A stretch of 64,000 bases of DNA from Lachnospiraceae bacterium. GTDB taxonomy: Bacteria > Bacillota > Clostridia > Lachnospirales > Lachnospiraceae. Under the pieces are notes generated by a model, which was not told the origin of the DNA, did no database searches, and saw only the letters and a list, made by a program, of their open reading frames with translations. Position numbers and translations under genes: made by a program. Below are positions 475-8,036 of the stretch, in pieces; the stretch's first letter is position 1; each line of letters begins with the position of its first letter. The DNA is taken from assembly GCA_029053015.1 (NCBI GenBank), contig JAIDHX010000043.1, forward strand, positions 1 through 64,000, given 5' to 3'.

Positions 475-930
475 CTAATGTTCGCAGTTCAGGGCGCTCA
501 GATACGCTATAATCTTTTCACGGTATTCTGCATGGTGCGGCATACCTTTGCCCAATCCGGCGAGCTTTGGGAACTGGAGCTTGAGAAAACCTCCGTCTTT
601 TAAGGTGATGGAACAGTTAATGGATCCCATAATACCTTTTTTGATGATGCAGCTTTTAATGTCGGTGAGCAAAAAACAGGCGCCGACGTCTTCCTCAACG
701 GTATTTCTCAGGTCGGCAATAAGATTGTATGCATCCAGGTACTCACGTTCCTCACATTCGACGACAAGCAAATGCCGCGCAGTGATACCGACATAAACAC
801 TAAATTGTGAGCTTTTTTTCTTGTTTACCTGAAGGGTATTGCCATGTATGCCTGCCAACAGTGTTTCTCCGGCAGGAATATATTCTCCCAAAACCTGCAG
901 CATCTTTCCTTCATCAAAAATTCCGGACAT
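475..930 (-). CDS. Small PH-like domain protein, second gene of the DUF2828 operon
   Basis: 151 residues with no signal peptide or membrane segment. The alternating beta-strand pattern (GETLLAGIHGNTLQVN, SVYVGITARHLLVVE, CFLLTDIKSCIIKKG, CSITLKDGGFLKLQFP) followed by a C-terminal helix resembles bacterial pleckstrin-homology-like domains. That is an impression of fold, not a family match. The ATG at 930 has a strong AAAGGAGG site. It starts 14 bases after the stop of the DUF2828 gene on the same strand, so the two are almost certainly co-transcribed and it may be a partner of that protein. Function unknown. Confidence 0.6.
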   Translation of the reverse strand: MSGIFDEGKMLQVLGEYIPAGETLLAGIHGNTLQVNKKKSSQFSVYVGITARHLLVVECEEREYLDAYNLIADLRNTVEEDVGACFLLTDIKSCIIKKGIMGSINCSITLKDGGFLKLQFPKLAGLGKGMPHHAEYREKIIAYLSALNCEH

Positions 931-944
931 AAATAAAACCTCCT

Positions 945-2495
945 TTATAAGTATTCTTTTATTGCCGTCTCTACGGCGTCATATCTGGGCAGCGCAAGCT
1001 GGTCTGTCAGTATTTTGTAAGGGTCTGTTTCGCCTGTGAGAACCATCTTTGCAATCATAGGAGAGAAACCGCTCACAAGTGCAACGCCAAGTGCATTTTC
1101 CTTGACGGGAATGGTATTCGTCCTGCTGCGGATATTCCAAAATATAAGCCTCGGCAGACGGTAGCCATATTGGGAATAGCGTTTGGCAAATGTCTCGAAT
1201 AACCTCTCATCCGGAGGAACCAATTGGTGTGCGATAAGATGGCTTGTTGCAGTATCAAATTCCATGTCGGAGAGAATCAGCAGATTGGCGGGAAGGTCAG
1301 CCTGCGTCATATGGTTTTTCACGGCAGTTAAAAGAATCAGTTCAAACACGGCTTCTAAATCAGTGTTTGCCACTTCGTTGTAATGCAGCGCAATTTCTAT
1401 TTTGTCATGCAGTGTCTTTCCTTTGGATAAATCCACAAACTGGGGATTTTGGCTGAAGGAAATATAGCAGTCCTTAAATTGTCCCGTACAGCGCTCGGAA
1501 AAGTAAATAGCGAGTGCATTTGCCACATCGAGGCAGGATACATTTGTTTTCCCTATGCGGCTGGTCATACTGCCGGAGCCGTCGGCGATACAGAGTGTAT
1601 TTCCTGTTCCCAGCGCGTAATCGGGCAGGGCACGCCATAGCTCTTCCAATGTCGCGTCAGCGGGTTGAAGTGCCGGAGAATACGTGGGGCGGCTTTCTAT
1701 ATAGGAATGTACAATATCGTGCGGGAACAGCACATCTGCATGAATTTGCTGTTCACCTTTTTTGACAGCGCCGAGAAATTCCCTGCGGCGTTCTTCGTCG
1801 TTTCGCAGAAACGCCTTATTGTAGATAAGATTGGCTCTGGATGGAACGGCATCATAGCGGATATCAGCCCATTTTCTGCTGCTCATCATAACCTCTACGA
1901 CCTTCAGGTATTTTCTGAAGGCAGAGAGCATCTGACGGTATTCTTTGGCTGTCATAGAGAATTTCTGCGCAAGTATGCGTGCCATTTGCTTTGTCTGTTC
2001 AGAGGATGCATTTTCCGAGGGAAGCCACTTGGCGCAAAGACTGATGGGAGCGCCATTTTCCATGTTTATGCGGTCTTTTTCAAGCTGCTTCCAAAGCATA
2101 GCGACGGCCTCGTCCGCAAGGGGCGTCTGCATAAGCGAGACAACGATGTCCCATCTTGTGTACTCCGGTATCAGCGGCATAAGCGCTCTTGCCATTTCGG
2201 TGTGGTTTTGTGCCAGGTAAATAAAAAGCGTCCGAAAAAGCCTTCTTTCACCAAGTCCCTGCCTGACGTCACCGGCGAAAAAAAACCATTTTATGGCAAG
2301 AAGGAAATCTTCATAATATGCCTTTACAAATCTATCTGCAATTTCATCCGGAGAAGCATTTCTCAGCGAAGAAACGGCGAAATTCAAATCAAGCAGAGCC
2401 TTGCCCGTAGTCCTATAGCCTGTGGCGCCGTTTTCGGTCACGGAAGTGTTGTACTCATTATTCAGAACATCCTTAAGCTTCTGCATGAAACCCAT
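945..2495 (-). CDS. DUF2828 family protein: Ro60/TROVE-like helical repeats plus vWA domain
   Basis: 516 residues from the ATG at 2495, which sits 8 bases after GGAGG; an ATG 21 bases upstream lacks such a site. The N-terminus has the family signature (NGATGYRTTGKALLDLNF, then KWFFFAGDVRQGLGERRLFR). The first two thirds are helical and the last third is a von Willebrand A fold whose metal-site motif reads CIADGSGSMTSR, followed by LLILSDMEFD. Known of the family: DUF2828 proteins are related in architecture to Ro60/Rsr, the ring-shaped RNA chaperone that binds Y RNAs. The canonical Rsr N-terminal signature is absent. Two tRNA-shaped RNAs lie directly upstream on the same strand, the last ending about 32 bases before this start codon. 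An RNA-binding role with those RNAs as partners is inferred. Confidence 0.85.
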   Translation of the reverse strand: MGFMQKLKDVLNNEYNTSVTENGATGYRTTGKALLDLNFAVSSLRNASPDEIADRFVKAYYEDFLLAIKWFFFAGDVRQGLGERRLFRTLFIYLAQNHTEMARALMPLIPEYTRWDIVVSLMQTPLADEAVAMLWKQLEKDRINMENGAPISLCAKWLPSENASSEQTKQMARILAQKFSMTAKEYRQMLSAFRKYLKVVEVMMSSRKWADIRYDAVPSRANLIYNKAFLRNDEERRREFLGAVKKGEQQIHADVLFPHDIVHSYIESRPTYSPALQPADATLEELWRALPDYALGTGNTLCIADGSGSMTSRIGKTNVSCLDVANALAIYFSERCTGQFKDCYISFSQNPQFVDLSKGKTLHDKIEIALHYNEVANTDLEAVFELILLTAVKNHMTQADLPANLLILSDMEFDTATSHLIAHQLVPPDERLFETFAKRYSQYGYRLPRLIFWNIRSRTNTIPVKENALGVALVSGFSPMIAKMVLTGETDPYKILTDQLALPRYDAVETAIKEYL

Positions 2496-2526
2496 TGCGT
2501 TTTCCTCCATCTGCAATTTTGGTAAA

Positions 2527-2641
2527 CAGGGCTAGTTGGATTCGAACCAACGACAAGGGGAGTGACAGTCCATTGTAAAGTTGCTGCAAGAGCTTTTGAC
2601 AAAGCTCCTTTTTCCTGCTCTACCAACTGAGCTATAGCCCT
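2527..2641 (-). ncRNA. tRNA-mimic RNA 1 (Y-RNA-like) in the leader of the DUF2828 gene
   Basis: Read on the minus strand this is a tRNA outline without an anticodon arm. It has a 7-bp acceptor stem (AGGGCUA/UAGCCCU), U8-A9, a standard D arm (GCUC-AGUUGGUA-GAGC) and a perfect T arm (GUUGG-UUCGAAU-CCAAC). Where the anticodon arm belongs there are about 60 bases instead, with a 7-bp hairpin GAGCUUU-GUCA-AAAGCUC and then a tract UGCAGCAACUUU. No anticodon stem-loop of the normal size can be drawn and no CCA is encoded. Bacterial Y RNAs such as YrlA carry a tRNA-like module of this kind (known). With the Ro-like gene immediately downstream, a Y-RNA role is the leading inference. The acceptor/T-arm helix should be a substrate for RNase P or RNase Z, which would free it from the mRNA. 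Confidence 0.75.
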
Positions 2642-2648
2642 AAAAACA

Positions 2649-2761
2649 GGAGCGGCCGGAAAGGATTTGAACCTTTAAGACCATGAGAAAATTGCTGCAG
2701 GTGCCTTTTACAAGACACATCTTTAATTTGCCTGACTGAAGAGTCAAGCCGCAGCCGCTCC
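2649..2761 (-). ncRNA. tRNA-mimic RNA 2, diverged sister of RNA 1
   Basis: Seven bases (UGUUUUU) upstream of RNA 1 and in the same orientation. Its ends pair in an extended helix (GGAGCGGCUG/CGGCCGCUCC, 10 bp with one wobble). The D-arm position is an 8-bp hairpin with a CUUC loop (GCUUGACU/AGUCAGGC). The T arm is intact (AAAGG-UUCAAAU-CCUUU). The middle again has a 7-bp hairpin (GUGUCUU-GUAA-AAGGCAC) followed by UGCAGCAAUUUU. This matches the core of RNA 1 closely, while the rest differs, so the shared core rather than the tRNA part is what selection has held. The U-run after its 3' end could act as a weak terminator or processing spacer. Stretches 2762-2933 show no gene. Confidence 0.65.
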
Positions 2762-2933
2762 ATATGCCAACTATAGCATATTTAGGGAAAGAAGGCAATG
2801 AGAGCAGAGCTGTCTTTGACAGTTCTGACTCTTGTATTGATTGCAATAAAATGATATTTCTATATTAAATAGTATACTTTCTGTCAAACAAAAGAGATTA
2901 ATAAGTGAAGTTTAATCATGGAAAAGAGGATTT

Positions 2934-4187
2934 ATGAAATTAATTTGGAATGAGTATGCACATTTTATCCCGGACCAGGAAAAAGTATTTATCGGTAATA
3001 CAATGAATAAAGAGTGTATGTTTATCACAAAAGAATGTTATCAAATATTGAATAGCGCGATGAAAAAGAATTTGTCAGAAAAGCAGATTGTCGATTCTTT
3101 CCAGACGGAAAAAGAGCGTCAATATATGAAAGATTTAATTGAAATCCTGATGCAAAAAAGAATGATTGGGGAGTTTGATTATCTGAAACTGTTTAAAGAT
3201 AATTTAAAAATAACATGGGCATTTACCGATAAATGTAACTTAAGGTGTAGGCATTGTGCAAACTCATCCGGTGAAATGAAAAGAGGAAAAGAGTTAGAAA
3301 AAGAAGAACAGTTTTCTATTTCGGATCAAATTTGTGCATTACATCCGAAAAGTATCTGTCTAACCGGCGGAGAACCATTATACAACCCGTATTTTTGGGA
3401 ACTTGTGGACAATATAAAGGGACAATTTCAGGGAAATTTGAAATTAATGACAAATGGAACTTTAATCAGCGAAGAAAATGCCTCAAAATTGGCAGAACAG
3501 TTTTTCTCTATTGATATCAGTATTGATGGCGCTGATGAGGAAAGCTGCGCAAAGATACGGGGCAATCATGTTTTTGAAAAAGTAGTTCAGGGAATAAAGC
3601 TGTTGAAAAAACATGGAGCAAAAAAAATTGTGGCTTCTATGGTGGATTGCAGAGTTACGCATGAATACATACAGGCATTTAAAGATTTGTGTGAAAATGA
3701 GCTGGGTGTACAATATATGGTCAGGGCTTTTGATAGTATCGGAAGGGGCGAAGAAAATAAAAAAGAATTGGAAAATCTGCCTATTGAAATTTTGGAAAGT
3801 AATATAGAGGGAAAGAAAGAGAATAAACCGTCTTTTATAAAAAAAGAAGAAAGAAAATATATGCCGGATATATTTGGGTGTAAAGCGGCACTCATGGAAT
3901 TCTACATAGATTATCGAGGGCAGATTTTTCCGTGTCCGGTACTGGATTCAGAAGAGTTTCTTCTTGGTAATGTATTACATGAAGATCTAAAACAATATAT
4001 TTTCGAAAAACAGTATATGGACAGTAGGGGATATAGTACGTTGCTTAAGTACCTTCCATGGAATCTGCCGGGGTGCTCTGATTGTAAGAACCAGTTATTT
4101 TGTTACACATGCATAGGAGATATAAAAGATAAATATGAAAGTGGAATCATAAAGAATTGTAGTAAAAGAGTACCTTTTCAGAACTGA
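2934..4187 (+). CDS. Radical SAM/SPASM peptide-maturation enzyme 1
   Basis: 417 residues. The [4Fe-4S]-SAM motif is C101-N-L-R-C105-R-H-C108, and CLTGGEPLYNPYF is the SAM-binding GGE motif. Residues 1-90 form a separate small helical/winged domain that looks like the peptide-recognition (PqqD-like) element found at the N-terminus of many RiPP radical SAM enzymes. The C-terminus has a Cys-rich SPASM region (GCKAALMEFYIDYRGQIFPC, then C-x2-C-x5-C-x2-C) for auxiliary clusters. It starts the cluster, with the second radical SAM gene 12 bases behind. It should modify a ribosomal peptide, most simply by thioether or C-C crosslinking. The reaction is not determinable here. Confidence 0.8.
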   Translation: MKLIWNEYAHFIPDQEKVFIGNTMNKECMFITKECYQILNSAMKKNLSEKQIVDSFQTEKERQYMKDLIEILMQKRMIGEFDYLKLFKDNLKITWAFTDKCNLRCRHCANSSGEMKRGKELEKEEQFSISDQICALHPKSICLTGGEPLYNPYFWELVDNIKGQFQGNLKLMTNGTLISEENASKLAEQFFSIDISIDGADEESCAKIRGNHVFEKVVQGIKLLKKHGAKKIVASMVDCRVTHEYIQAFKDLCENELGVQYMVRAFDSIGRGEENKKELENLPIEILESNIEGKKENKPSFIKKEERKYMPDIFGCKAALMEFYIDYRGQIFPCPVLDSEEFLLGNVLHEDLKQYIFEKQYMDSRGYSTLLKYLPWNLPGCSDCKNQLFCYTCIGDIKDKYESGIIKNCSKRVPFQN

Positions 4188-4199
4188 GGTGGAATATAA

Positions 4200-5219
4200 A
4201 TGCTTTTTAACATATGGGTTACACAGGATTGTAATCTTTCTTGTAAGTATTGTTATGAAAAAAAGAAAAGAAAAAGGTATATGAGTCTGGAAGAGGCAGA
4301 TGCGGTTATCGCATTTATTTTGAAATATCAGACAGATAAAACGAATCAGGTAAATTTTCATGGAGGGGAACCGTTACTGAATTGGGACGTAATAGAATAT
4401 ATCGTGAAACAAATCAATCATTCATCCCTAAAAAAAGGGCGGTTTCGATTTAGCTTTACGACAAATGGAATATTACTTACCAATGATGTTCTGCGTTTTT
4501 CCAAAGAAAATGATGTTCTGATTTCTGTCAGTATTGATGGGAAACCGGAAACACATAATAAAAACCGCGTAGATATGAGCGGAAAAGATACCTATCATAT
4601 GGTGGAGGAATGTTTAAGACGACTTGATGAGAGTGGGATAAATTATGAAATCAGAATGACATATAATGCAAAAACCATATCAGAGCTGGCCTGTAATGTT
4701 AAATTTTTGTTGGAAAATTTTAATTGCTCCTGTCTGCGCTGGGCACCGGACTATTTTGATTGTGGATGGAATGAAGAAAAAGTACAGATATTCATAAAAC
4801 AATACCGGAGCATAATGGAATACCAAAAAAAGTTAAAAAAGGAGCAGGCAGAAAAAATAGCGGTTTTAAATATAGATAATTTTAATAAATTGGGCAGATG
4901 CTGCGGCGGCATAACAGAGATGAATATTGACACGGGGGGAGATTTATACCCTTGTACTTTTGCCTGTGGGAAGGAAGCGTTTCTGATAGGTAATATCAAA
5001 GATGGGCCTGATATAGAACGTATCAATAGAGTATATGGCACAATGCAGAAAAGCTATCCGAGATGTGAAACTTGTCAAAACAAAGACTATTGTATTGGGA
5101 ATCGTTGCAAAATGATTAACTATATGGAAGATACCTGCTGTGGTAATACTTACATAGAAAATCTTTGCAGACTGTCCAATGCAGAGATTACCTTATTAAG
5201 AGAACAATGGATGCTATAA
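4200..5219 (+). CDS. Radical SAM/SPASM peptide-maturation enzyme 2
   Basis: 339 residues. The cluster motif lies at the very N-terminus (C11-N-L-S-C15-K-Y-C18-Y), with FHGGEPLLNWD as the GGE motif. The C-terminal SPASM domain is well formed: CGGITEMNIDTGGDLYPC, then FLIGNIKDG, C-x2-C-x5-C and a last CRL. Unlike enzyme 1 it has no N-terminal recognition domain, so it may rely on enzyme 1 or on the leader itself for substrate binding (inference). The start ATG follows GAGGTGG. It is followed 23 bases later by the small peptide gene. Two different SPASM enzymes in series suggest a two-step modification. Confidence 0.82.
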   Translation: MLFNIWVTQDCNLSCKYCYEKKKRKRYMSLEEADAVIAFILKYQTDKTNQVNFHGGEPLLNWDVIEYIVKQINHSSLKKGRFRFSFTTNGILLTNDVLRFSKENDVLISVSIDGKPETHNKNRVDMSGKDTYHMVEECLRRLDESGINYEIRMTYNAKTISELACNVKFLLENFNCSCLRWAPDYFDCGWNEEKVQIFIKQYRSIMEYQKKLKKEQAEKIAVLNIDNFNKLGRCCGGITEMNIDTGGDLYPCTFACGKEAFLIGNIKDGPDIERINRVYGTMQKSYPRCETCQNKDYCIGNRCKMINYMEDTCCGNTYIENLCRLSNAEITLLREQWML

Positions 5220-5242
5220 TTTATAGAAAGGAATGACAGCGT

Positions 5243-5491
5243 ATGAAAAATGAAATAACAGATTTTTTGGAATTGAGAAATCAGTTTGATGTAAGGTTGC
5301 AAGGCTGTGATAACGACTGCAAGGAATATAGAAGGTCTACAGCAACGGAAGTCAAGGCGATTGAAGGTTTGGGTATTAACTGTACTGAACCGTCAATGGA
5401 TGACATACGTGCAGGAATGGAAATGGCAGAAATACTTGGTATTACATATTGTTATCGTATGTTGACGGGTAAGACGACATATATGTGGTAA
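5243..5491 (+). CDS. 82-residue Cys-containing peptide, candidate RiPP precursor
   Basis: Starts at an ATG behind AAAGGAATG and sits between the maturases and the transporters, where RiPP precursors are often found. It has four cysteines: a CDNDC pair near residues 22-26, then one each near 47 and 70. The tail is rich in Thr, Tyr, Met and Trp (LTGKTTYMW). There is no signal peptide, no Gly-Gly cleavage site and no membrane segment. I do not recognise the family. It could also be a small accessory protein, with the true precursor elsewhere. No other small ORF with a ribosome site was found inside the cluster. Confidence 0.5.
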   Translation: MKNEITDFLELRNQFDVRLQGCDNDCKEYRRSTATEVKAIEGLGINCTEPSMDDIRAGMEMAEILGITYCYRMLTGKTTYMW

Positions 5492-5540: not shown

Positions 5541-8036
5541 ATGTTTATTTTCGCAAAAATGATGGTGAAACACCATATAAAACGTAGTTATATGATAATA
5601 TTTGGCATTGCCTGTTCGGTGGCAATGATGTTCTGCATGATACAAATGGGAGATAGTATTATCAACAAATACAAAGAACAGGCATTGGGAACCAACCGGT
5701 ATGATTTTCATATCAATGGTCTGACAAAAGAGCAGGCAGATTGGTTAAAGAGAGAACTTGATAAAGAGGAAATAGAAGCGTTAGGAATCCTTTATAGTGA
5801 TTACTGTGAAATGCAAATGAAACCGGAAATGCTTCAGAAAATGGAGTTTCAGATATTTGCGGGAACAAAAGAAGGATTGGAAGAGCCCGGTCTGCGGCTT
5901 CGTGAAGGGACATGGTGTGAACTGCCGGATGAAATCGTTTTGGAGCAATATGTCTGCGATATGCTGGGAAGTCAGATTGGCGATGAAATAACAATTATTT
6001 GTAATCTGTCGGGAGAAACCTATTGTTTCCGACTTGTCGGAGTCATGGAAAACACACCGGCTTTATTAAGTAGCGGCTGGACGAGAGGATTTTTGTGCGT
6101 TTCGCTGGAGTTCCTATATGATGCAGGTCTGGCAACGCCGGAAGCAGAAGAATATAGCTTGATTATTACGGTAAATTCCGATATTGACGCTTATGATAAT
6201 GAAAAAATAGACGAACTATACATGAAAGCCAAAGAATTGCTCGCAGAACTTTATGGGATAGATTATTATGATACGATTCAGAAAGCAGTCAACGGGCAGG
6301 CAACGGAGGAAGAGAAGGATGTTTTAGGGAAAATTGGTGAAAGAATTGGATTTAATCATTCAAAAACAGAAAATATTGCGGAATATGTGTCGCAGTCGGA
6401 AACCGGAAAAGCATTAAAAGCATTTGTGATATTGATTGCCGTTGCTATGGTATTCTTGATTTTTAACAGTATGCACCTTACCATTGCTGAAAATACGAGA
6501 GAATTGGGAATGCTCCGCTGTATCGGAATGGATTATAGACAAACCGGTCTGGTTGTATTTACGGAAAATATTTTTTACTGCATCTTAGGGTACGGAATTG
6601 GAGTTGTTTTTGGAAATGTACTGAATCAGGTGCTTGCAAAAAATATTCTTTATTATCTGACCGGCGATTACGTAAAAATCCGGCAGCTTGGAAGCAGTTA
6701 TCTGCTGACGGCAGCCGTTGTCCTGATTTCTCTGGCCATGGCGTTTGTATTATCCGTACATAAAATTTGGGTGCTGACTCCCATAGAAGCAAGTAAATAT
6801 ACGGGGGTAACTGCCAAAAACAAAAAAGTGCAAACGATCGAAAAGTGGTCTGCCGTAAAATTTGCGGGAAGAAATATCGGGCGGGAACGAAGCAAAAGCA
6901 TGATTGTGATGATTTCCATGATTTTTTCCATGATGATACTGATGCTTATCATAAATACTGTCGGTTCTGTAAAACTGCCAGAAAAGGACAAAAAAAGCAG
7001 ATTTTCAGATTATGAAGCATATGTGCTTCTTTCCGGAATGATGGATGCCCTGGAAGGTATTTCTTCTGCAAAGATTACTTTTTCAGAAATGGAGGAAGTG
7101 AAGGAGATAAACGGTGTAGAGAAGTTATATGCAATTGGTGCGAATCTTGATACGGAAGAAACCATGTATCATGAAAATGGTAACAGGATTCCAGATATCA
7201 TTTACAATGATGAGATGTGGAAGTGGCTGTTAGAACAAAACGGGAAATCTGAACTTTGGGAAAAGGGACCGGATTCCATTTGCGTGATAACGGGAGCGTA
7301 TGGAGAAGAAGAAAAAAAGCTTCTCGATGAAATAGAAGAAACGGGTGCCATTGCTTATAGACTGGAAAATGGAAAAGAAGGCATTTTGAATGTTGATTTT
7401 GTGCTATATGCTGATTACATACCGGAGTATAAGGGAACGTCCGGTACTCCGGTTACGATTATCCTGACTGAAAAAGCTGCTTCGGAGATTTATACGGATT
7501 ATAGTTATCTGGATGTGATGATAAAATGTAATTCTGATGCGGATGAAAAGACATATGCTGATATTGTCGGTATCTTTTTGGAGAACGAGTATGCGATATG
7601 CGGGTCTTATGATGTTGGAATGGAGAAGATAATTACGGATGCGCTGGTGATTATTTACATTGCTGCATTGATTGTCATTGCCACGGCGGTCACTGCGGTT
7701 TTGAATATGATGATTATCATGAAAGCAAATCTTGTTCTCAGACGAAAAGAATATGGAATATGGAGAGCTTTGGGGATGCCTTTAAAACAATTAAAAAGAA
7801 CGATTAGCATGGAAATACTGTTAATGCTTTTTACGTCTTATGTGATAGCTGTTATGCTCTCATTTCCCATTCAATGCTACCTGTGCGACATGATAGGAAA
7901 TTGGAATATAACCGGTATCTTGTCAGGATATCTTGGAGTAGGTGCTTTTTCCATATTGTTGGTGTATTTCTTGGTCATGTTGAATCTTAAATTTAAGGAA
8001 ACAAATCAGATTATAGCAGACATCAGGGAGGAATAA
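5541..8036 (+). CDS. FtsX-like ABC transporter permease (MacB/LolE type)
   Basis: 831 residues. The layout is that of FtsX-fold permeases with two repeats: one N-terminal membrane helix, a large extracytoplasmic domain, three helices around residues 295-420, a further helix near 465, a second extracytoplasmic domain, and three C-terminal helices from about 690. The conserved cytoplasmic phrases NTRELGMLRCIGM and RRKEYGIWRALGMP mark the two FtsX repeats. Start ATG 5541 follows AGGAGG. The partner ATPase begins 2 bases after the stop. In this cluster it probably moves or protects against the modified peptide. Such permeases act by mechanotransmission on substrates at the outer face of the membrane. 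Confidence 0.85.
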   Translation: MFIFAKMMVKHHIKRSYMIIFGIACSVAMMFCMIQMGDSIINKYKEQALGTNRYDFHINGLTKEQADWLKRELDKEEIEALGILYSDYCEMQMKPEMLQKMEFQIFAGTKEGLEEPGLRLREGTWCELPDEIVLEQYVCDMLGSQIGDEITIICNLSGETYCFRLVGVMENTPALLSSGWTRGFLCVSLEFLYDAGLATPEAEEYSLIITVNSDIDAYDNEKIDELYMKAKELLAELYGIDYYDTIQKAVNGQATEEEKDVLGKIGERIGFNHSKTENIAEYVSQSETGKALKAFVILIAVAMVFLIFNSMHLTIAENTRELGMLRCIGMDYRQTGLVVFTENIFYCILGYGIGVVFGNVLNQVLAKNILYYLTGDYVKIRQLGSSYLLTAAVVLISLAMAFVLSVHKIWVLTPIEASKYTGVTAKNKKVQTIEKWSAVKFAGRNIGRERSKSMIVMISMIFSMMILMLIINTVGSVKLPEKDKKSRFSDYEAYVLLSGMMDALEGISSAKITFSEMEEVKEINGVEKLYAIGANLDTEETMYHENGNRIPDIIYNDEMWKWLLEQNGKSELWEKGPDSICVITGAYGEEEKKLLDEIEETGAIAYRLENGKEGILNVDFVLYADYIPEYKGTSGTPVTIILTEKAASEIYTDYSYLDVMIKCNSDADEKTYADIVGIFLENEYAICGSYDVGMEKIITDALVIIYIAALIVIATAVTAVLNMMIIMKANLVLRRKEYGIWRALGMPLKQLKRTISMEILLMLFTSYVIAVMLSFPIQCYLCDMIGNWNITGILSGYLGVGAFSILLVYFLVMLNLKFKETNQIIADIREE

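Follow-up and report, generated by a model that had tools for sequence, protein, structure and literature searches.

In a 64,000-nt stretch of contig JAIDHX010000043.1 from a Lachnospiraceae bacterium (hereafter the window, whose coordinates are used unless another record is named), we identified a minus-strand locus in which a promoter-like site is followed by two structured RNAs, RNA2 and RNA1, and then by a gene for a DUF2828/DUF7788 protein. This locus probably specifies a DUF2828-branch ribonucleoprotein of the Ro60 type, equipped with its own Y-RNA-like RNAs, and the particle would handle cut or misfolded tRNA. The computed observations are the predicted protein fold, an RNA family with a covarying stem, two layouts of that RNA and its linkage to the gene. 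An earlier note on the window had proposed the minus-strand order RNA2, RNA1, DUF2828, with the RNAs ending 32 bases before the start codon; the order was borne out, and the gap to the ATG at 2495 is 31 bases.

RNA1 (2527..2641, minus strand) is a tRNA frame with a Y-like hairpin instead of the anticodon arm. It passed the RF00005 tRNA gathering score (47.4 bits vs 29), and its acceptor (7/7), D (4/4) and T (5/5) arms are perfectly paired, as the earlier note had stated; ARAGORN called no tRNA at RNA1. The 60-base insert with a 7-bp hairpin that had been described in place of the anticodon arm was right to within 1-2 bp; the hairpin measured 8-9 bp. Its strands, GGAGCUUU and AAAGCUCU, lie at 2589..2608 on the minus strand and are followed by GCAGCAA (CAGCAA at 2581-2586). 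RNA2 (~2648..2761, minus strand) consists of an acceptor stem (8 bp by eye), a 7-bp Y-like hairpin (GUGUCUU / AAGGCAC, 2701..2718, minus strand) and a T arm, and here too GCAGCAA follows the hairpin (CAGCAA at 2692-2697). Orthologues of RNA2 occur in loci L003, L004, L006 and L007. Neither RNA2 nor its L006 orthologue has a canonical D arm; therefore, of the two RNAs that had been called tRNA-shaped, only RNA1 fully deserves the name. The fold of RNA2 had a z-score of -4.88. The folding energy of RNA1 alone was unexceptional (z -1.82; 10/200 shuffles folded equally well), and it is covariation and recurrence that mark RNA1 as more than a chance structure.

The recurrent part was found by reading the leaders of family genomes (a sample of 200, with DUF2828 in 22/200). 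It is a core formed by a covarying stem, of which strand B reads AAGNNNN, 2-3 bases, ACAGCAA, and strand A, NNNNCUUGU, pairs with B. In form I, strand B comes first and the B-A loop spans about 20 to 200 bases. In form II, strand A comes first with a tight loop to B, and the hairpin lies inside a tRNA frame; the window RNAs have this order. Upstream of strand A the sequence is rich in A (in form I, 66% at the second base before the strand vs a background of 32%), and therefore the conserved internal loop seems to be two-sided.

A strict scan for the core covered 42 DUF2828 loci: the window, 21 other family loci, 4 close loci, 6 from the phylum, 8 phages, 1 gut phage fragment and 1 plasmid. The scan of genome contigs gave 5 close loci, and L005, whose gene begins at a contig edge, was excluded from the counts. 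The core was present on the gene strand at 36/42 loci and antisense at 3/42, compared with 25/420 shuffled loci, in agreement with the co-occurrence with DUF2828 that had been predicted. Leaving out the near-duplicates L003, L004, L007, L142 and L143 gave 31/37, and the family sample by itself gave 19/22. Among the six misses, L042, L053, L162 and L164 have copies that break one scan rule. Independently of gene position, a blind strand-B pattern matched 81 places in 58/200 genomes, and the reversed pattern matched 26. All of the places at DUF2828 loci (13/13) have the partner strand. Elsewhere, 67 of 68 places were read, a few of them near contig ends; a CUUG-ending partner was present in 3 and a chance-like partner without CUUG in 5. 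Two of these 3 lie before RtcB in genome G135, which has no DUF2828 match, and the third stands alone in G092, a genome with DUF2828 at another place.

Covariation in homologues had been set beforehand as a test. In all, 54 B strands were picked by sequence only, and 46 of them have a fully paired downstream 7-mer; with the variable parts swapped as a control, the mean was 30% paired and the maximum 45% in 500 trials. Among the eight others are four FelixO1 copies with the pairing shifted by one base and a single form II copy. The form II alignment A2 (11 sequences, of which three are the window and two near-identical relatives) scored 0.801 against 0.251, slid controls reached no more than 0.208 (<=0.208), and 19/24 pairs have changes on both sides. 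The RNAs are recurrent beside DUF2828 and covarying, and their proposed Y-RNA likeness is supported.

These data also bear on a simpler origin, that the RNAs are decaying or insertion-bearing tRNA genes lying by chance beside a phage-derived gene. RNA1 does score as a tRNA, and some phage DUF2828 loci sit in tRNA clusters. However, the insert is a conserved, covarying stem with ACAGCAA that recurs across families and phages, and the tRNA arms stay paired. In addition, under R1, a covariance model built from A2, 73-nt matches (ordinary tRNAs by length) scored ~51 bits, whereas form II RNAs mostly scored 69-119. RNA1 reached 118.8 bits, being itself a training sequence of R1, and RNA2 reached 52.5 bits, no better than an ordinary tRNA. 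Because the stem is conserved and covarying, we rejected ordinary or decayed tRNAs, an origin that is extremely improbable. Each of the 200 genomes had some match to R1, and, with scoring confined to 18 candidates per genome, copies can be missed; above 60 bits there were 10 matches (7 of them training sequences) in 7/200 genomes, and 6 of these 7 carry DUF2828.

The association extends beyond the family. In the phylum sample, DUF2828 was present in 7/398 genomes including the window's own, and the six new loci (three from one genus) all have the core, one with CAGCCA. In phages, tblastn found DUF2828 in 682/50,697 records, and 18 phage loci were read (L160-L166, L168, L169, L214-L222). Form I copies lie near and downstream of the gene in SEP9 (3), FelixO1 (4, in a tRNA cluster) and MkaliMitinis3 (3, at a locus where the same loose scan also yields 5 antisense matches). 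Others lie near the gene in AG20 (3), EfV12 (4), NCTC12673 (2), LAh_6 (4) and L168 (2), and PJN02 has 5, up to 2.5 kb from the gene. The looser scan of 20 phage and plasmid loci gave 58 sense and 23 antisense matches; it is therefore too noisy for single weak matches to be counted, and L217, L220 and L222, with weaker candidates only, stand outside the count. R1 detected form II RNAs in B23 (76.6 bits), LAh_6 (69.6 bits) and AsFcp_1 (68.9 bits). The annotation of B23 has this RNA, 110 nt long, as an undetermined tRNA.

In NCTC12673, the product gp012 (L224/L225, record 6462-7267) is a partial DUF2828 paralogue with 33% identity to gp95 residues 25-206. It adjoins a 158-nt non-coding RNA that has long paired segments and is, in the available text of PMC6024767, the most densely transcribed feature of the phage. 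The ACAGCAA core is absent from this 158-nt RNA.

The positions of the copies speak to a second alternative, that the RNAs are no independent molecules and form a cis-regulatory leader, an autoregulatory or attenuating mRNA structure for the DUF2828 protein or for tRNA-processing enzymes. The leader position in the window and in core-carrying bacterial loci fits this model, as does the short distance of 31 bases from RNA1 to the start codon. It does not fit the copies downstream of the gene in SEP9, FelixO1 and MkaliMitinis3, those before RtcB in G135 (L087), which lacks DUF2828, or those away from DUF2828 altogether: L105/L157 in G092, which stands apart from any DUF2828 gene, and L196 (G131:C13:42090-42205), a stand-alone form II RNA of 89.4 bits whose genome has no DUF2828 match. 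Tandem copies with different inserts also suit separate RNAs better, and we regard a purely cis-regulatory leader as unlikely. In view of the same downstream, RtcB-linked and stand-alone copies, the coupling of RNA maturation to DUF2828 translation that the earlier note had suggested is not supported as a general rule; the leader position is therefore common in bacteria and not essential. L196 is preceded by TTCGCAAC-T-run, which resembles an element of some DUF2828 leaders.

Next to form II, we found copies whose layout is that of the known bacterial Y RNA YrlA. Two copies in EfV12 (L163) and one in FelixO1 (L161) have, within the stem, first a T arm, then a closed acceptor hairpin and last a D arm, and unconstrained folding reproduced this shape in all three copies. 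The order of stem, T arm, closed acceptor hairpin, D arm and stem is that of the Rfam YrlA consensus. RNA1 of the window departs from it, having the same arms circularly permuted, with the acceptor open and the stem closed. A third layout, with the stem around a tRNA-like body in ordinary order, was seen by eye in L049, L052 and L087. That two circularly permuted layouts exist suggests a modular build, with stem and tRNA mimic separable from each other, and would predict which RNA part the protein binds.

The two EfV12 copies match the YrlA model RF02553 over its full length (45.2 and 34.3 bits), below its gathering score of 69. No match at the gathering score was found in the window, 25 bacterial loci and 20 phage or plasmid loci. 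A weak match in the window (15.6 bits) spans the RNA2/RNA1 junction and was rejected as YrlA, as it joins the RNA2 T arm to the RNA1 D arm. By our reading, tandem tRNAs can mimic YrlA in this way, which would explain some sub-gathering matches including those in the E. coli and B. subtilis controls; such matches are therefore weak evidence unless the end stem is present. TROVE loci, found in 6/299 phylum genomes (two with short or broken frames), had sub-gathering YrlA matches in 3/6, and the core with CUUG ending was found at none of the 6. Two further RNAs were noted. EfV12 has a third full-length RF02553 match (L163 1211-1311, 28.4 bits), which lies in a tRNA cluster and was missed by the core scan. 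In the window's genus, L189 1584-1701 (G606:C15) holds a YrlA-like RNA that combines T and D arms with a closed acceptor hairpin; it scored 43.8 bits against the gathering value of 69.

The DUF2828 gene (945..2495, minus strand) encodes 516 aa that scored above cut-off for PF11443 (DUF2828) and PF25043 (DUF7788) in Pfam and belong to PHROG 850, an RNA-binding protein family. Its predicted fold contains the helical-repeat ring and the vWA-like domain of Ro60, and the top fold matches are Ro60/TROVE proteins, at a sequence identity of 10-14%. DGSGSM in the window protein is presumably a metal ion-dependent adhesion site (MIDAS) motif. No PF05731 (TROVE) match was found in the protein or in the rest of its genome. 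The earlier assignment to a Ro60-like DUF2828 branch, distinct from canonical Rsr, is thus upheld by the domain matches and supported by the predicted fold.

At some loci, the neighbouring genes relate to RNA repair. In 4/22 family genomes, RtcB is a same-strand neighbour of the DUF2828 match at a distance of 90-835 bases; it also adjoins DUF2828 in L140, L167 and L168, and lies 1.2 kb further on in phage AG20. The RtcB frame of L140 starts with a WCX domain and may be a regulator fused to RtcB. In G135, as described above, the RNAs precede RtcB itself. Other RNA ligases occur near DUF2828 in two jumbo phages without a detected RNA copy, and the ligase of L219 was confirmed. Of 11 upstream neighbours scanned, at loci picked partly because such a regulator gene was visible, 8 are of WYL/WCX type (4 of them below the Pfam cut-off), and the remaining 3 are an HD protein, an ABC transporter and a weak Exo_endo_phos match. 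WYL proteins are proposed sensors of nucleotide-like ligands in the available text of PMC4012209. The leaders of L042, L046, L050, L051 and L054 (5/42 loci) share the element TTCG(C/T)AACTTTTTTTCC(G/A)TGAT, which precedes the DUF2828 match by about 150-410 bases and may serve as operator for a WYL-type regulator.

From these observations we propose how the particle might work. The constant RNA element, a stem of ~7-8 bp with the ACAGCAA/A-rich internal loop, would most likely be the binding site of the protein, because it is the sole part common to all copies. The variable part would then be the effector, a tRNA mimic in some copies and a plain loop in most. In RNA1 the mimic is an open-ended tRNA body with the stem in place of the anticodon arm, and the EfV12 and FelixO1 copies connect these arms in reverse, with an open stem and a closed acceptor, like YrlA. 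A single promoter probably drives transcription of RNA1 and RNA2 and of the mRNA behind them, for which the candidate is TTGCCT-17-TATAGT (2770..2798, minus strand), directly before RNA2 and identical in letters in L003 and L004; with 5 such sigma-70-type sites in 2.6 kb vs 3.9 in shuffles, the site is weak alone. RNase P and the tRNA 3′ processing enzymes would probably cut both RNAs from the transcript. The particle itself probably handles cut, misfolded or surplus tRNA and would feed or restrain RNA ligases and nucleases. A phage particle would help tRNAs to stay usable when host defences cut them. We suggest this role because of the linkage to RtcB, other RNA ligases, WYL regulators and tRNA clusters.

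One version of this Ro60-type reading differs in its last step only, the RNA being a tether between the Ro60-like ring and an exonuclease or ligase, and not a decoy or sensor of damaged tRNA. An RNA-tethered decay arrangement of this kind is reported for Deinococcus Rsr and PNPase in the available text of PMC7790460. The same predicted protein fold, the YrlA-like body in phage copies and the linkage to RtcB are all consistent with a tethering adaptor. Most copies, however, have no recognisable tRNA-like body, and we hold this version only tentatively, as somewhat less probable than its opposite.

Several results weigh against a Ro60-type particle that handles tRNA. The strict-scan rules were shaped after the first 20 loci had been viewed. 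No convincing core copy was found beside DUF2828 in L048 or in Vibrio phage nt-1 (L166); with the loose scan and R1, phages L166, L219 and L221 gave no copy beside the gene, and L215 gave one weak match that is not a convincing copy. Few form I copies are tRNA-like, since a T arm is present in 7/46, two of which are really form II, and the FelixO1 copy had no RF02553 match up to E 1. The suggested protein-binding role of the stem is drawn from its conservation. No RtcB match was found anywhere in 9/22 DUF2828 family genomes, and the window's gene is not beside RtcB, which lies on contig C8. The window's gene also has no WYL regulator next to it, and a profile placed a WYL-type regulator next to DUF2828 in 7/28 genomes, 5 of which had supplied the profile.

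With these points in the balance, we still favour the Ro60-type reading, and lean, with less assurance, towards a wider one. In this wider picture there would be a second, parallel Ro60-Y RNA world, where DUF2828 particles of gut bacteria and hundreds of phages share one ACAGCAA-stem RNA family that evolved both stem-tRNA topologies by circular permutation, and the particles would serve tRNA repair and phage defence or counter-defence.

Other genes lie around the operon. Downstream, the earlier note had placed a PH-like gene; a frame is indeed there (475-930, minus strand), with no Pfam match (E up to 0.1) and no NCBIfam match (E up to 0.001). By tblastn, the gene is present at L003 alone among 21 related loci, and it was dropped as a system component. 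Just downstream of the operon, a frame at 3-431 on the minus strand fuses an XRE-type helix-turn-helix to a weak glyoxalase-like start. On the plus strand, at 2934-5491 and divergent from the RNA operon, two radical SAM genes (the first with SPASM) precede an 82-aa open reading frame; this looks like a peptide-modification cluster.

To our knowledge, work on Ro60 and Y RNAs has been limited to animals and a few bacteria. If our reading is true, a larger set of bacteria and phages, including laboratory phages such as FelixO1, has a comparable particle with its own RNAs; the choice of RNA by such particles and their cooperation with RtcB would become testable in simple hosts, and unlabelled RNAs in phage tRNA clusters would gain a family. 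The RNA family beside DUF2828 is apparently undescribed: the literature searched, available to us in part, holds no description of RNAs of DUF2828, and a prior account elsewhere is possible.

Compared with Ro60/Rsr (TROVE, PF05731), the DUF2828 protein shares the predicted helical-repeat ring and vWA domain and has Ro60/TROVE as its best fold matches, but it lacks a PF05731 match and is only 10-14% identical in the fold alignments. The rsr-yrlBA-rtcBA RNA repair operon of Salmonella, as described in the available text of PMC7790460, combines Rsr, Y RNA and RtcBA and responds to cut tRNAs. At some DUF2828 loci a Ro60-like gene, Y-like RNAs and RtcB likewise occur together; in contrast to Salmonella, DUF2828 stands in for Rsr, WYL-type regulators stand in for RtcR at several loci, and the window's gene is not beside RtcB. 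The likeness is one of parts only, and we claim no membership. The phage 'Ro-like RNA binding protein' of PHROG 850 is the same protein family, so the Ro-likeness was already in phage annotation, but the phage records examined give the protein no annotated RNA partner, and the B23 RNA appears there as an undetermined tRNA. According to the available text of PMC7824862, a ROT/TROVE protein occurs in some jumbo phages, and its cellular counterpart works with a tRNA-like partner. With YrlA (RF02553), the DUF2828-linked RNAs share a stem that closes the ends and has an internal loop, as well as a tRNA-like module that lacks the anticodon arm; the EfV12 copies also share the arm order and give full-length sub-gathering matches, and one FelixO1 copy folds alike. 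Unlike YrlA, they have conserved letters of their own (ACAGCAA), RNA1 of the window is circularly permuted, and the partner gene is DUF2828, not TROVE. Within the Y-RNA kind, the family is thus a variant marked by a sequence signature of its own and by permuted layouts, and it is linked to DUF2828 in bacteria and phages.
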